A stretch of 20,927 bases of DNA from Bacillota bacterium (GTDB lineage Bacteria; Bacillota; Clostridia; Lachnospirales; Lachnospiraceae): positions 1 through 20,927 of the forward strand of contig JAEWPN010000060.1 of NCBI GenBank assembly GCA_023399455.1. The letters run 5' to 3'. The notes beneath the pieces are model-generated. The model saw only the letters and a program-made list of their open reading frames with translations, had not been told where the DNA came from and made no database searches. Positions 2,847-20,788 of this stretch are shown here, piece by piece; the stretch's first letter is position 1; each line of letters starts with the position of its first letter. The position numbers and the translations under genes were made by a program.

Positions 2847-4538
2847 ATGCTTTCGGTTTGTCTGATTTTCTTGTATGTACTTCTGACAGCGTATTTGACG
2901 GGTTTTTTGGTACTGAAGGGTATCGGGCGGTTCTGTACGGGCAGAAATAGAAAGGAAGTGCCGGAGACAACCTGGCATACTCTGAAAATTGACAGCTATT
3001 GCATGGCAGGACTTGTGGCCCTTACGGTGTACGCGCAGTTTTTCAGCTTGTTTCACAAGGTGGGATTTGCAGCGAATATCCTTATTCTCTTTTTGTGTAC
3101 CGTTATTATCGCAGTTTTTCGAAGGGATCTTTTTAAAGAGCTTCTTAAGGTTAAGGAGACCGTCACGTGGAAAAAGGCGGCAGGCTGTCTGTTTTTGTTT
3201 CTGCTGTTCTCCTATGGGACCTCGAGAGGTATTATCCATTATGATACGGGGCTTTACCATGCCCAGAGCATTCGGTGGATAGAGGAATACGGTATAGTAA
3301 AGGGTTTGGGGAATCTTCACTGCAGGCTGGCTTATAACAGCTCGGCGTTCAGCCTCTCTGCACTTTTTAGCTTTTCTTTTTTGGGGATGCAATCCTACCA
3401 CTGTATGGCAGGATTTTTTGGACTTATATTAGCAAAGGTATGCGGTGAAATCGCAGAAGCCTTCCGGCGAAAACGGCTGATTCTTTCTGATTTTGCGCGG
3501 ATAGCTTGTATTTATTATCTGCTCATTATCTTCGATGAAATGGTATCTCCGGCCTCAGATTATTTCATGGTGCTTACCATTTTCTATATTGTCATCCGCT
3601 TTTTGGATTTAGCAGAGAAAAAAGAGGAATCATGGATCCCATATGGACTTTTGAGTCTTGTGGCGGTATATGCCATGAGCCTGAAGCTTTCTGCGGCACT
3701 CATTTTGCTGCTTGTGGTAAAGCCTGCGGCAATGCTCATAAAAAGCAGAAATCTTCGGGGCATCTTTTCCTTTATAGGACTTGGAACCGTTGTCATCGCG
3801 CCTTATCTGATTCGGAATGTAATAATATCAGGCTGGCTTATATATCCTTTTACCGCAGTGGATTTATTCTCTGTCGATTGGAAGATACCGAAGGGAATTG
3901 CTGATTATGACGCGAAAGAAATACAAGCGTGGGGACGTGGGATTTATGATGCGGCCAGATACGGAGCACCGATAACTTCATGGTTTCCGGAGTGGCTAAG
4001 GGGGCTTGGAGCAGTGGATAAACTGTCGGTTCTCGGGGCTGCGTTCTCGGTTCCTGTTTCGGTGGCAGCAGCACTTGTCATATGGATAAAAAGAAAAAAA
4101 GAAATGTACGACTTCCTGCTTGCGGCAGCTACGGTGAATCTATCCTTTTTGTTCTGGCTCTTTTCTGCGCCCCTCATTCGCTATGGGTGTGTCTATGTAT
4201 GGCTTGCTTCTGCTCTGACTCTTGGCGGGTTGATGCTGTATGTTGTAAAGGGAAAATACGCTTGGAGGGCGATTTATATAGCTTTGGGGCTTTTTGCGTG
4301 CTATAAGGTGTATGCCTTTGGCAGAGAGGGTGCCTCGGTCTGTGACGGCAATTATATGATAAATCAGAAGGATTATGAAAATTTTGAAATGAACGTTTAT
4401 GAAATAGACGGATTGACCTTTTTCTATCCGATTACGGGCGACAGGGCAGGCTATGCGGCGTTCCCTTCCTCCCCGGCGGAGGCTGAGATGACATTACGGG
4501 GAACAAATATAAGAGAAGGCTTTCGTTATAAAAAATAA
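2847..4538 (+). CDS. LIC_10190-like polytopic membrane protein, GT-C-like
   Basis: A 563-residue integral membrane protein with about ten or more hydrophobic helices. The loop after the first helices carries DTGLYHAQSIRWIEEYG (133-149) and GLGNLHCRLAYNSS (153-166), which I recall as the hallmark of the LIC_10190 family of uncharacterised membrane proteins found in sugar-polymer loci. An acidic residue followed by YH near the first outer loop resembles the catalytic region of GT-C glycosyltransferases that use lipid-linked donors, so a membrane glycosyltransferase role is plausible but not shown. The hydrophilic C-terminal ~80 residues may lie outside. It starts at ATG 2847 with TGAGG 9 nt upstream. 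It is divergent from the AraC regulator and is followed by the first foldback element, which separates it from fcl. Confidence 0.75.
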   Translation: MLSVCLIFLYVLLTAYLTGFLVLKGIGRFCTGRNRKEVPETTWHTLKIDSYCMAGLVALTVYAQFFSLFHKVGFAANILILFLCTVIIAVFRRDLFKELLKVKETVTWKKAAGCLFLFLLFSYGTSRGIIHYDTGLYHAQSIRWIEEYGIVKGLGNLHCRLAYNSSAFSLSALFSFSFLGMQSYHCMAGFFGLILAKVCGEIAEAFRRKRLILSDFARIACIYYLLIIFDEMVSPASDYFMVLTIFYIVIRFLDLAEKKEESWIPYGLLSLVAVYAMSLKLSAALILLLVVKPAAMLIKSRNLRGIFSFIGLGTVVIAPYLIRNVIISGWLIYPFTAVDLFSVDWKIPKGIADYDAKEIQAWGRGIYDAARYGAPITSWFPEWLRGLGAVDKLSVLGAAFSVPVSVAAALVIWIKRKKEMYDFLLAAATVNLSFLFWLFSAPLIRYGCVYVWLASALTLGGLMLYVVKGKYAWRAIYIALGLFACYKVYAFGREGASVCDGNYMINQKDYENFEMNVYEIDGLTFFYPITGDRAGYAAFPSSPAEAEMTLRGTNIREGFRYKK

Positions 4539-4565: not shown

Positions 4566-4867
4566 AGTATAGGATTAGGGTGTCAAAAGATCCTTTTGCG
4601 AACGGCTCTAGAAAATATGCCCAAAACAAAAAGACTTCTGCGCCGAATTCAAATATATAAGAAGTTCTAGTTCTCAGTCTATCCCCGCCAAACACAACAG
4701 AAAACAAAAAACTCGCTGCGCTCAAACAGTTTTGCTTTCTGTTGTGGCACAAATATCCAGAGAAAGAACTTCTAAATATTTTCATAGGTGCAGTCGTTCT
4801 TTTTGTTTTGAGCATATTGACTCGAATATTATTAAAAAGGACTTTTTGACACTCTAATCAGTATAGG
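4566..4867 (+). mobile_element. Foldback element copy 1 with 7-8-bp flanking direct repeat
   Basis: A 287-bp imperfect palindrome (4573-4859). The outer arms GATTAGGGTGTCAAAA and its partner GACACTCTAATC close it. A second arm, 4615-4633, pairs with 4799-4817 (one mismatch). The apical stem pairs ACAACAG (4694-4700) with CTGTTGT (4739-4745) after an AAAC bulge. Blocks at 4645-4669, 4711-4734 and 4762-4800 are nearly identical in the copies at 14859 and 20470. AGTATAG(G) occurs directly on both sides (4566-4573 and 4860-4867), which looks like a target-site duplication. The lower part of its apical arm pairs poorly, so this copy is partly decayed. It encodes no transposase; a non-autonomous MITE-like element or a mobile structured-RNA gene are both possible. 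Confidence 0.8.
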
Positions 4868-7062: not shown

Positions 7063-7123
7063 AATAAGCGGGCTTCGGTAACAATATAAGAAATTGTATA
7101 TACAATATGTGGGGAATTTTATC

Positions 7124-7507
7124 GTGGATATTGACGGATTAAGAGATGCGGAATTGATAAAACACGTAACTAAAATAATGCTCGATATGGGAGTGCCTGC
7201 ACATTTAAAGGGATACCATTACCTGCGTGCGGCAATCATCATAGCGAAAAAGGATATGGAAGTGGTCGGAAGCGTAACGAAACTTTTATATCCTGAGATT
7301 GCAAAGCAGTTCAAGACGACGGACCAGAAGGTGGAACGGGCTATTCGCAATGCAATTGAGGTATCCTGGATGAGGGGAAATCCCGAAACCTTTGAAGAAT
7401 TATTCGGTTATTCCATACTGACAGGTCAGACAAGACCTACCAACAGCGAATACATTGCGCAGATTGCAGATAAAATAAATTTGGATATGGAAAATGGTAA
7501 AATATAA
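7124..7507 (+). CDS. Stand-alone Spo0A C-terminal DNA-binding domain protein
   Basis: A 127-residue protein that is almost entirely the Spo0A C-terminal (sporulation initiation factor) DNA-binding domain. It shows GVPAHLKGYHYLR (23-35), LYPEIAKQF (55-63), the recognition-helix region VERAIRNAIEVSW (70-82) and RPTNSEYIA (104-112), all close to the Spo0A pattern. The phosphoacceptor receiver domain of full Spo0A is absent. The start is uncertain: GTG 7124 has GGGGAA (7111-7116) 7 nt upstream, while TTG 7094 would add ten residues without a good ribosome site. It has its own promoter and terminator and therefore looks monocistronic inside the polysaccharide locus. It may be a constitutive or competing DNA-binding protein at Spo0A-like sites; targets are unknown. 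Confidence 0.9.
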   Translation: MDIDGLRDAELIKHVTKIMLDMGVPAHLKGYHYLRAAIIIAKKDMEVVGSVTKLLYPEIAKQFKTTDQKVERAIRNAIEVSWMRGNPETFEELFGYSILTGQTRPTNSEYIAQIADKINLDMENGKI

Positions 7508-8620: not shown

Positions 8621-8769
8621 ATTATTTTGTTACTGTTCACATAGCAGCTTGACACTTGCTGTTAAGCTGCGTAAGAACGTGATTCAAGAGATGATTTCTG
8701 CTTCGCGAAGCGAATTCAAATGCAGAGATCATGTGTTACTGTGAATGGAATGAACAGTAACATTATTTT
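8621..8769 (+). mobile_element. GTTACTGTTCAC-ended mini-element with 8-bp target duplication
   Basis: A 133-bp element (8629-8761) with 11-bp perfect terminal inverted repeats, GTTACTGTTCA and TGAACAGTAAC. ATTATTTT flanks it directly on both sides (8621-8628 and 8762-8769), a perfect 8-bp duplication. Inside are a GCAGCTT/AAGCTGC stem, a TGATTTCTGC/GCAGAGATCA stem (8692-8730) whose loop carries GAATTCAAAT (also the start of the conserved block of the foldback elements), and a right-end sub-hairpin GTTACTGT/ACAGTAAC (8735-8761). It codes for nothing. It lies between the GtrB-like and TuaG-like genes, ending 14 bp before the latter's start. The right repeat abuts the ribosome site AGAGGG. A CAGCC/GGCTG hairpin sits just upstream near 8590. 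Confidence 0.85.
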
Positions 8770-13984: not shown

Positions 13985-14028
13985 AGGGTTACTGTTCACA
14001 GCAAAGTTGTGAATAGTAACATTAAAGG
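13980..14028 (+). mobile_element. 33-bp GTTACTGTTCACA hairpin with 8-bp target duplication
   Basis: GTTACTGTTCACA (13988-14000) pairs with TGTGAATAGTAAC (14008-14020) with one mismatch and a 7-nt loop. ATTAAAGG flanks it on both sides (13980-13987 and 14021-14028), a perfect 8-bp direct repeat. The left repeat contains the stop codon of the EpsG-like gene; the right one is part of AAAGGAG, the ribosome site of the next gene. It looks like a minimal or internally deleted relative of the element at 8629. Confidence 0.85.
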
Positions 14029-14858: not shown

Positions 14859-15152
14859 TTAGGATTAGAACATCAAAAGTCCTATTTTAATGTGTAGGAG
14901 TCAATAGACCCAAAATAAAAAGACTCCCGCGCCGAATTCAAATATATAAGAAGTTCTAATTCTCAGTAAATTTGAGCCAAGCATATCAGAAAACAAAGAA
15001 CTCGCTGCGCTCAAACAGTTTTGTTTTCTGATATGGCTCAAGTATACAGAGAAAGAACTCCTAAATATTTTCATAGGTGCAGTCGTTCTTTTTATTTTGG
15101 GTCTATTGCCTGATAAAGTTAGCAAAAAGGACTTTTGAAGTTCTAATTCTAA
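14859..15152 (+). mobile_element. Foldback element copy 2
   Basis: A ~294-bp palindrome. The outer arm TTAGGATTAGAAC (14859-14871) pairs with 15140-15152 with one G-U-type pair. A perfect 21-bp arm pairs 14902-14922 with 15088-15108. The apical stem pairs TTGAGCC (14972-14978) with GGCTCAA (15035-15041) and ATATCAG with CTGATAT after an AAGC bulge. The conserved blocks lie at 14934-14958, 15000-15023 and 15051-15089, with spacing identical to copy 1 although the arm sequences differ. I see no flanking direct repeat. It separates the GT2 gene from the GT4 pair, in the same orientation as copy 1. Confidence 0.8.
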
Positions 15153-18738: not shown

Positions 18739-20421
18739 ATGAAAGATACGGCGGAAAGCTATATGAAGGAAAAGAAGTGGAATCATAGTAAAAAAAAGAA
18801 TATCGGGGATTATGCGTGGCAGGCCGGCATGCTGGCTTTGCTTTGCCTGCAAGTACTTCTGGTTCTTTATTATGGCGGTAAAAAGGCAGGTTTTCATGAG
18901 GATGAATATTATTCCTATTATTCTTCCAACCGAACGGCGGGGCTGTTCGAGCCGGATAGGGAATGGGCAGCCCGGGATACGTACCGCAATGAGTTCGTCG
19001 TGCTGGAGGGTGAAGGGTTTAACTATAGCTTGGTAGCCACCGTGCAGTCCTGGGACGTGCATCCTCCCTTTTTTTATTTTCTCCTGCATACTGCATGCTC
19101 GCTGTTTCCGGGGATATTCAGCAAGTGGTTGGGCATCGGAGTGAATTTATTCGCATATATCATTAACTTTTTCCTGCTGGCATGGCTGGCCTATATGATA
19201 ACGGACAGAAATAAAACGCTTACCTTTCTTGTCAGCGCAGCTCACGGTTTTAATGCGGTTATTATTTCCGGAGTTCTTTTTATAAGAATGTACGAATGGC
19301 TGACTCTTTTTGTGCTGCTGCTCTCCTGCCTGCATGTGCGGTTAATGAGTAAAGAACACTCAAGGAGTAAAAGAGGTGATCTTCGTTTCAGCAGTTTCCT
19401 TTTGCCCCTTATGTTTGTAAATTATTTGGGATTTCTGACACAATATTATTATATTATTTTTTTGTTTTTTATGGCGGCAGGTTTTTGTCTGTGGCTTCTA
19501 TGGAGGGACAAAAATTTGTGGAACTGCTTCCGATACGGCCTTAGCTGCGCCTTCTCCATAGGGATGGCGGTTATAAGCTATCCTGCTTCTCTGTCGCATA
19601 TTTTCAGAGGATATCGGGGAACCGGAGCGGCGGCAGAATTTTTAGACGGGGCGAATACTGCGGATAGACTTGGTTTTTTCGGCAGACTGATGGATGAATA
19701 TGTTTTTGACGGACATTTTTTGCTGCTTCTTGCGGCGATTATTGTTATGGCAATCGTACTGTTTATCCGAAAGAAGAACAATTCCGGGACGGAAGCGTTT
19801 GTGATAGGCGGGGATTATAAGGCATATTTTCTTCTTTTATTTGCGGTCTGCGGGTATTTTTTTACGGTTTCCAAGACGGCGCTTTTGCTTTACGAGACTT
19901 CTAACCGCTATGAGCTTCCTGTATATGGGATATGGATGCTGTTAATCATTGTAGCGTTATATACGTTATCCGGCAGAATTTTCCGTGCGCTGTTCATTAA
20001 CGAGAGACTTAGGAGGGCCGGCATTGCACTTATTTTTCTTTTGTTTTTGGCACAGGATGTTCATGAACTCATAACAGGCAAAGTGCTGTTCCTCTATGAA
20101 GAAGATGGGGACAGGGTGGAATACGCCAAGGGAAATGCCGATGTTCCGGTAGTGATTTTATATAATGCTGCGACTCCTTATCATGTCTGGTGGTGCTCCA
20201 ATGAACTGATGGAATATGAAAGGGCATATTTCATGAGTGAGAATAATCAGGAAGAGCTTACCGACGATATTGTATGCGGCAGCCATAAGCTGATCGTATA
20301 TGCGGCGGACGGAGAGACTAAGGAGGAAAGCCTTGATTTGATTCTTCGAAGCAATCCGGAGCTTGAGGGCTATCGGATGGTAGGTCGGAAATCTCTTTGG
20401 AGCGTGTATGAATTCGAGTAA
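18739..20421 (+). CDS. GT-C membrane glycosyltransferase (GT39/ArnT-like)
   Basis: A 560-residue polytopic membrane protein with about ten helices after a cytoplasmic, lysine-rich N-terminus. The first outer loop carries HEDE (53-56) in GFHEDEYYSYY and a second motif DVHPPFFY (106-113). This acidic pair plus HPP is typical of GT-C enzymes of the GT39/PMT/ArnT type that use polyprenyl-phosphate sugars outside the membrane. The C-terminal ~110 residues are hydrophilic. Its donor could be the product of the GtrB-like enzyme at 7655 (inference). It is the last gene of the run. Its stop codon lies inside a 22-bp direct repeat that flanks the third foldback element. Confidence 0.82.
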   Translation: MKDTAESYMKEKKWNHSKKKNIGDYAWQAGMLALLCLQVLLVLYYGGKKAGFHEDEYYSYYSSNRTAGLFEPDREWAARDTYRNEFVVLEGEGFNYSLVATVQSWDVHPPFFYFLLHTACSLFPGIFSKWLGIGVNLFAYIINFFLLAWLAYMITDRNKTLTFLVSAAHGFNAVIISGVLFIRMYEWLTLFVLLLSCLHVRLMSKEHSRSKRGDLRFSSFLLPLMFVNYLGFLTQYYYIIFLFFMAAGFCLWLLWRDKNLWNCFRYGLSCAFSIGMAVISYPASLSHIFRGYRGTGAAAEFLDGANTADRLGFFGRLMDEYVFDGHFLLLLAAIIVMAIVLFIRKKNNSGTEAFVIGGDYKAYFLLLFAVCGYFFTVSKTALLLYETSNRYELPVYGIWMLLIIVALYTLSGRIFRALFINERLRRAGIALIFLLFLAQDVHELITGKVLFLYEEDGDRVEYAKGNADVPVVILYNAATPYHVWWCSNELMEYERAYFMSENNQEELTDDIVCGSHKLIVYAADGETKEESLDLILRSNPELEGYRMVGRKSLWSVYEFE

Positions 20422-20788
20422 TACGTAGCATTTATAGTTACTGTTCACTCCTCACAGCAACGGGCCTACAAATGGACTTTTTTCAGATATCGAAGGCAAT
20501 GGAAGTCGAATCAAAAGACTCCTGCTTCGAATTCAAATATATAAGAAGTTCTAATTCTCTGAATCGTCAAGCCAAACATAACAGAAAACAAAAAACTCGC
20601 TGCGCTCAAACAGTTTTGTTTTTTGTTATGGCTTGGCGATTCAAAGAAAGAACTTCTAAATATTTTCATAGGCACAGTCGTTCTTTTGATTCGGCTTCGA
20701 TTGCCCGTAAAAGTTTGTAAAAAGTCCATTTGCCGGACATTCCTGAGAACGGAGTGAACAGTAACACGAGTAATACGCAGCATTTATA
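20415..20788 (+). mobile_element. Composite element: foldback copy 3 inside GTTACTGTTCAC ends
   Basis: Three layers are visible. The outermost are 22-bp direct repeats (20415-20436 and 20767-20788, one mismatch) beginning CGAGTAATACG and ending GCATTTATA. Inside lie 15-bp perfect inverted repeats GTTACTGTTCACTCC (20437-20451) and its complement (20751-20765). Inside these is foldback copy 3. Its outer arm AAATGGACTTTTT pairs with AAAAAGTCCATTT; 20495-20518 pairs with 20682-20705; the apical stem 20561-20573 pairs with 20630-20642 with one G-U-type pair and an AAAC bulge. Conserved blocks lie at 20529-20553, 20595-20618 and 20646-20684 at the same spacing as in copies 1 and 2. No transposase is encoded. 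It follows the last EPS gene. Confidence 0.8.

Follow-up and report, generated by a model that had tools for sequence, protein, structure and literature searches.

Prokaryotic MITEs, as reviewed in PMC10969869, are short and intergenic, with terminal inverted repeats and target duplications, and they include deleted or truncated copies with the potential to form stem-loops. The foldback element described here is alike in all of these respects. It differs in being palindromic almost end to end, in having a conserved core of loops and bulges under unrelated ends, in having a tip that recurs across phyla, and in that no parent insertion sequence was found for it. Haloarchaeal PATEs (palindrome-associated transposable elements), as PMC3119063 describes them, are likewise palindromic and transposase-free but lack terminal inverted repeats and target duplications. 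The family described here has both, which sets it apart from PATEs and IS605-derived elements.

In integron attC sites, according to PMC2727003, the structure of a DNA hairpin rather than the sequence of its stem appears to be kept, as seems to be the case here. The likeness is one of resemblance only, and unlike attC the element combines a fixed apical loop with free stems. Intrastrand triplex motifs and BoxC repeats (PMC4666352) are also widespread intergenic palindromic DNA. In several other phyla, a purine-rich foldback that precedes the hairpin resembles, by eye, the triplex motifs, whereas no such motif was noticed in the element of the window, and the part of that paper available to us does not mention the tip.

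Three foldback elements in the window

The window is the whole stretch of DNA that was analysed, 20,927 nt from a Lachnospiraceae genome. Repeat finding recovered a single family with three members of 264 nt, the outer two 78% identical to the middle copy, and alignment located the same three foldbacks that the first-pass annotation had reported. Its limits for the first copy hold, and those for the second and third were moved to 14863-15148 and 20437-20765. The features, all on the plus strand, are as follows.

4566..4572, plus strand, copy 1, left 7-bp target duplication AGTATAG
4573..4859, plus strand, copy 1, foldback element with type-A ends, GATTAG...CTAATC
4629..4803, plus strand, copy 1, conserved hairpin core (covariance model R1, 201 bits)
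4710..4728, plus strand, copy 1, apical loop AACTCGCTGCGCTCAAACA
4860..4866, plus strand, copy 1, right 7-bp target duplication AGTATAG
14863..15148, plus strand, copy 2, GATTAG...CTAATT, no clear target duplication (flanks ATATTAG / CTAAGAG)
14918..15092, plus strand, copy 2, conserved hairpin core (covariance model, 204.8 bits)
14999..15017, plus strand, copy 2, apical loop AACTCGCTGCGCTCAAACA
20415..20436, plus strand, copy 3, 22-bp direct repeat CGAGTAATACGTAGCATTTATA at the left edge
20437..20765, plus strand, copy 3, core as in copies 1 and 2 with type-B ends, GTTACTGTTCACTCC...GGAGTGAACAGTAAC
20513..20687, plus strand, copy 3, conserved hairpin core (covariance model, 204.4 bits)
20594..20612, plus strand, copy 3, apical loop AACTCGCTGCGCTCAAACA
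20767..20788, plus strand, copy 3, 22-bp direct repeat beside the right edge, one letter changed

The 19-nt apical loop is identical in all three copies. The 156-nt core previously described as free of indels is gap-free in the window, but its length is not absolute beyond it, as the ortholog of copy 1 in the nearest genome is 2 nt shorter and another copy (L082) is 1 nt longer. Copy 2 folds at -121.3 kcal/mol, against a mean of -53.3 for shuffled sequences (z -14.8; reached by 0 of 200 shuffles). Arms that differ and still pair had also been proposed, and an alignment of 14 copies bears this out: 12 of 54 pairs, in a structure taken from that very alignment, have changed on both sides (shuffled mean of 3.6; 12 reached in 0 of 500 shuffles). 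The copies are overlapped by mechanically called ORFs of 82-96 aa, and copy 1 also has 28 nt in common with a minus-strand ORF of 207 aa. A 563-aa ORF (2847-4538) that ends shortly before copy 1 has no Pfam match at E up to 0.001. Farther along, between polysaccharide-type genes, the sole Pfam match of an ORF at 7094-7507 is the Spo0A C-terminal domain (PF08769, E 9.7e-40).

Insertion at many places in the nearest genome

The nearest genome compared (G001; one contig of 4.72 Mb) has 90% of sampled words in common with the window and, by identity and flanks, has orthologs of all three copies. BLAST returned 74 matches and the covariance model 62, in both cases with both strands counted because the element is a palindrome. 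Full-length copies are ∼290 nt, and 26 were aligned. At least 10 others are shortened, down to 37 nt, and several of these retain both ends.

The element has GATTAGGGTGTCAAAAG ends in inverted orientation. Among type-A copies of G001, 16 of 24 are flanked by exact 7-bp target duplications and four more by duplications with one mismatch, whereas shuffling flanks among copies gave 2.3 exact duplications on average; L082, whose ends were set a few letters short, was scored as a miss. In the window, copy 1 has a target duplication of this fixed length, copy 2 does not, and copy 3 has repeats of 22 bp instead. A frequent target is the short palindrome CTTATAGGA...TCCTATAAG or a variant of it, with 23 pattern matches in G001. 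Ten of these 23 were read, of which five adjoin an element and five have no insert. The terminal inverted repeats and short target duplications indicate insertion at many places and, together with palindromic targets found with and without an insert, identify the element as mobile, MITE-like DNA. This concerns past mobility rather than present activity. That the three repeats of the window are mobile insertions was absent from the first-pass annotation.

Between nearest copies in G001, uncompensated changes outnumber compensated ones by 60 to 12. Individual copies therefore do decay, which is the expected fate of an insertion. The earlier proposal of a selected structure rather than a decaying repeat is supported in that loops and bulges recur with compensated stems, but single copies do not escape decay. 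The orientation of copies tracks chromosome position: between 2.57 and 4.19 Mb of G001, 16 of 16 copies scored for gene orientation are on the minus strand, and one shortened copy within that stretch, at 3.21 Mb, is on the plus strand.

Ends and core

Type-B ends beginning GTTACTGTTCAC flank the core in copy 3 and in three copies related to it (L086, L088, and L089). Relatives in two other genomes (G062 and G376) have, by eye, related ends with 8-bp duplications (ATCCTTTT, GCTCCGCT, and CCCGTCAG). Type-A ends, at no more than two mismatches, are present in 11 of the 16 same-genus genomes (counting G001), whereas a reversed-end control gave 0-3 matches per genome in the same 16. The core model, by comparison, matches only G001 and G007 within the genus. 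Twelve type-A stretches in other species were read: seven are foldbacks with other interiors (L380-L385 and L388) and five are single ends. Because one core occurs under two end types, and type-A ends surround other interiors, core and ends look like separable modules. The outer arms of L062 and L079 are, by eye, swapped relative to the core, as an inversion between arms would do.

Among the same-genus type-A elements, L380-L383 (L383 at G005:C45:11890-12095) have different interiors enclosed by long near-perfect palindromes, among which is a hairpin of 126 nt. The window itself has a second palindromic repeat, at 13987-14021 (35 nt) and 8630-8764 (∼135 nt), in the same gene cluster, with GTTACTGTTCAC ends that resemble those of copy 3.

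Relatives in the Lachnospiraceae

A single copy in G007 is 74% identical, with arms altered on both sides. More widely, a 175-position covariance model, the search that had been proposed as a check, found matches in 27 of 397 genomes of the family, G001 included (E up to 0.001). Many of the foldbacks retain the apical loop AACTCGCTKCGCTCARACA as well as internal loops, such as CTAA on both arms or GGTTTCGG facing CTGCAAAGTC. The stems between these loops differ in sequence yet are nearly complementary, and in some cases the same holds for an outer arm of more than 100 bp. Conserved loops and bulges with compensated stems extend to other genera and phyla, where chance covariation or loops confined to one genome would have spoken against a selected structure.

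Since reverse strands of the palindromes themselves score 45-69 bits, a model score of 50 is weak evidence alone, and relatedness of these foldbacks is judged by the loop and bulges they have in common (by eye). The loop is within four substitutions in 39 of 40 loci scanned. This constancy is partly built in, as the loop is part of the model or pattern, whereas stem covariation is not. When occurrences were grouped manually, the first bulge (CTAA on the left, AACGC on the right) was present in 12 of 50 model hits from Lachnospiraceae, in 7 of 38 occurrences in Bacteroidota, and in 1 of 10, 3 of 27, and 0 of 25 in other groups, against 0-2 single hits in control windows. It is found in none of 24 copies of G001, which have other letters there. 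Exact arm patterns had no match in the genome and viral contigs searched.

A 20-nt tip on free stems across phyla

The exact 20-mer AACTCGCTTCGCTCAAACAG, one letter off the tip of the window copies and exact in one copy of G001 (L072), occurs in at least 119 stretches of a species-level genome collection, mostly from other phyla; the chance expectation for an equal amount of random DNA is ∼0.5. These tip occurrences, hereafter the genome-contig set, are not purely from other phyla. Carriers, known from record titles and placed in phyla by us, include Variovorax, other Burkholderiales, Bacteroidales, Flavobacteriaceae, Lachnospiraceae, other Clostridia, Desulfobacterales, Nitrospirales, Patescibacteria, Thermoanaerobaculia, and others. 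In a phylum sample, the tip with at most one mismatch gave 137 matches in 17 of 398 genomes, and the backward pattern gave 12 matches in eight.

The tip is on a ∼10-bp stem of free sequence. Runs of at least six pairs are near the loop in 67 of 87 occurrences (forms with T or G and A or G; L261-L340, 80 of the at least 119 loci) but at 2.9% of 1740 positions picked at random. In 106 distinct arm pairs, which have 88 distinct 8-nt arms beside the tip, 602 of the 848 cells formed by the first eight stem positions are matched (mean of 245 and maximum of 288 when shuffled). In an alignment of 75 of these pairs, hand-thinned for relatedness, the tip-stem covariation score is 0.834 versus 0.226 when shuffled (reached in 0 of 500), and slid controls score at most 0.339. 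Two of five covariation measures did not exceed shuffles: double-change pairs (reached by 486 of 500) and further pair types (134 of 500).

The tip is also present in 66 viral contigs, of which 65 were scored and 10 have a 6-bp run near the loop. The others are mostly one prophage lineage without the stem, possibly chance matches, and were not counted as family members. Among the viral contigs L196-L259, a 19-nt tip without a stem is located between early genes in one prophage lineage, and a filamentous-phage-like lineage also has the 19-nt tip. Plasmid searches found two records, one from Variovorax, in which the match is unannotated, and a weaker one from Comamonas. Other plasmid and E. coli searches with four queries found no match.

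Several lineages have a longer cassette, TGCGG plus tip plus TCCTC, under a further free stem (L263, L275, L276, L340, L344, L361, and others). In other phyla (L264, L292, L316, and L318), a purine-rich foldback and, after it, a third stretch of purines are, by eye, upstream of the hairpin.

RNA or DNA

Selection on stems at the level of RNA would be expected to tolerate G-U but not A-C. Isolated G-T and A-C mismatches, with three paired neighbors on each side, number 80 and 67 over three sets: 53:32 in other Lachnospiraceae (p 0.03), 16:20 in G001, and 11:15 in the genome-contig set (L261-L340, 80 of at least 119 loci). Requiring two paired neighbors gave 114:108 and requiring four gave 53:44. 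Under the first counting rule, the ratio was 79:53 for copies outside G001 (p 0.03) and 23:27 for those of G001. In the tip stem of the genome-contig set, G-T exceeds A-C by 51 to 37 at positions 1-8 and by 114 to 80 over 12 positions, with the excess at positions 4 and 11. By comparison, the stems of 11 tRNAs at the same loci have 22 G-U in 229 pairs; their lack of A-C is weak evidence, as ARAGORN may not draw such pairs.

Gene orientation was determined for 78 of 88 occurrences of the genome-contig set with both neighbors called, and the hairpin is co-directional with flanking genes in 23 and anti-directional in 23, so no strand is favored. Of the 88, 18 are within an ORF of at least 150 aa from a crude caller, and such ORFs may be spurious in palindromes. 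Orientation is biased in G001 (++ 18, -- 5, -+ 5, +- 1; n = 29), and 49 other Lachnospiraceae loci are distributed as ++ 16, -- 9, +- 8, -+ 6, and 10 undecided. Rfam, also proposed as a check, has no match in the window; among 30 relatives, its only matches are a T-box and an FMN riboswitch, both away from the hairpins.

The first-pass annotation had leaned toward a plus-strand structured RNA, which as a regulatory or processed UTR hairpin would have been spread by transposition. Strong structure and compensated pairs fit this reading, as does gene context: plus-strand genes precede all three window copies and also follow copies 1 and 2 (the window has no gene downstream of copy 3), and co-directional copies make up 18 of 23 in tandem contexts of G001 and 16 of 25 among other model hits. 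Some subsets lean to G-T as well. Nevertheless, without a clear overall excess of G-T, a favored strand in the genome-contig set, or an Rfam match, the lean toward RNA is not sustained, and we consider this explanation improbable. Recognition at the level of DNA, which had been offered as the alternative in the form of single-stranded DNA read by a protein, is more likely than RNA.

How the arms stay complementary

When nearest copies in G062 and G376 are compared, both partners have changed at 187 stem positions that still pair (75 transitions and 112 transversions), and 69 changed positions are unpaired in one copy. The corresponding numbers of compensated and unpaired changes are 42 and 13 in G379 and 12 and 8 in G130; copy pairs overlap, so none of these counts are independent. 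Double transversions bypass G-U, so that stepwise compensation in RNA explains them awkwardly. One conserved internal loop of L163 now has, on its left side, the complement of its right side, a state that the sibling copies of L163 do not have. A similar case in L193 brings such rewriting, by eye, to 2 of 53 copies scanned. Template switching at quasipalindromes is known in E. coli (PMC7202029), and rewriting of the kind in L163 and L193 is what it produces.

These observations also bear on whether the family is a neutral foldback MITE, whose arms would owe their complementarity solely to template switching or to recombination between arms, and whose loops would be inherited without function. 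Such an origin is compatible with the rewritten arms, the swapped outer arms of L062 and L079, the mostly uncompensated changes in G001, and the occurrence, within the genus, of foldbacks that combine these ends with other cores. But template switching should remove bulges, and these recur across genera; their persistence suggests that selection maintains them. In addition, the tip is unchanged while the adjoining stems, with the many distinct arms counted above, have widely diverged. Neutrality throughout therefore appears unlikely, to about the same degree as the RNA.

We consider it very unlikely that the hairpin is a bidirectional transcription terminator or an mRNA-stabilizing hairpin at operon junctions. 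The window copies are intergenic, and in the genome-contig set convergent contexts are more common than divergent ones (+- 22, -+ 10), but gapped pairs of neighboring genes at these loci already have a ratio of 48:39, G001 has one convergent and five divergent contexts, and a terminator does not need a fixed 20-nt loop.

Search for a parent element and associated genes

No autonomous transposon with these ends was found in G001 or in the other genomes, which were searched in part. A search of G001 with the end sequence gave 59 matches and no gene-sized pair, and the unpaired matches that were read are remnants; across the genus, two weaker matches were left unread. IS256-type transposase loci of G001, considered as a parent, do not have the short end motif. 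At 29 Lachnospiraceae loci, the neighboring ORFs shared most widely, by four loci, are the hairpin itself in translation, and all others link just two loci. Among the 25 largest clusters of neighboring proteins (80 of at least 119 genome-contig loci, plus viral loci), none spans more than four loci of the genome-contig set, and the large ones consist of phage lineages. The literature searched had no published description of the element, and four sequence strings had no match there.

The least probable explanation is a REP-like element served by an HUH/Y1 (RAYT or IS200-type) transposase: the element is palindromic, between genes, and multicopy, with some occurrences in head-to-head pairs (L264, L292, and L339), but its inverted ends and its target duplications are in keeping with a DDE-type process, and Y1 transposase was rejected as a partner because Y1_Tnp (PF01797) is not associated with the element (16 of 23 carriers, from 28 known carrier genomes, versus 14 of 20 others).

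Proposed explanation and implications

We suggest that the family is probably a MITE-like foldback element moved by a transposase supplied in trans, and that its conserved hairpin core is likely recognized as folded single-stranded DNA, not as RNA. Replication through the hairpin would copy one arm from the other by quasipalindrome template switching, which would account in part for the lasting complementarity of the stems, whereas selection would preserve the loop and bulges that arm copying would erase. The loop and bulges may then be recognition marks for a predicted protein reader. Set against this account are the failure to find a gene-bearing element with these ends, the lack of a clear duplication at copy 2, the unusual 22-bp repeats at copy 3, the orientation bias in G001, the excess of G-T over A-C in some subsets, the two covariation measures that did not exceed shuffles, and the absence of the first-bulge motif from G001 copies.

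A more far-reaching possibility, which we put forward tentatively and regard as rather doubtful, is that one widely shared enzyme reads folded single-stranded DNA by its fixed loop of 20 nt and by the spacing of its bulges. Any arms that keep these marks, and that template switching keeps complementary, could then be carried, and unrelated transposon ends would have repeatedly taken up the hairpin in many phyla.

If true, these explanations would describe a family of DNA hairpins across many bacterial phyla in which stems drift while a tip of 20 letters remains fixed, pointing to a shared recognition machinery without a name. The family would offer natural material for how palindromes survive and get corrected in bacterial chromosomes. 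It would also be a warning that compensatory base changes, which are commonly read as proving that an RNA is functional, can come about in the DNA.
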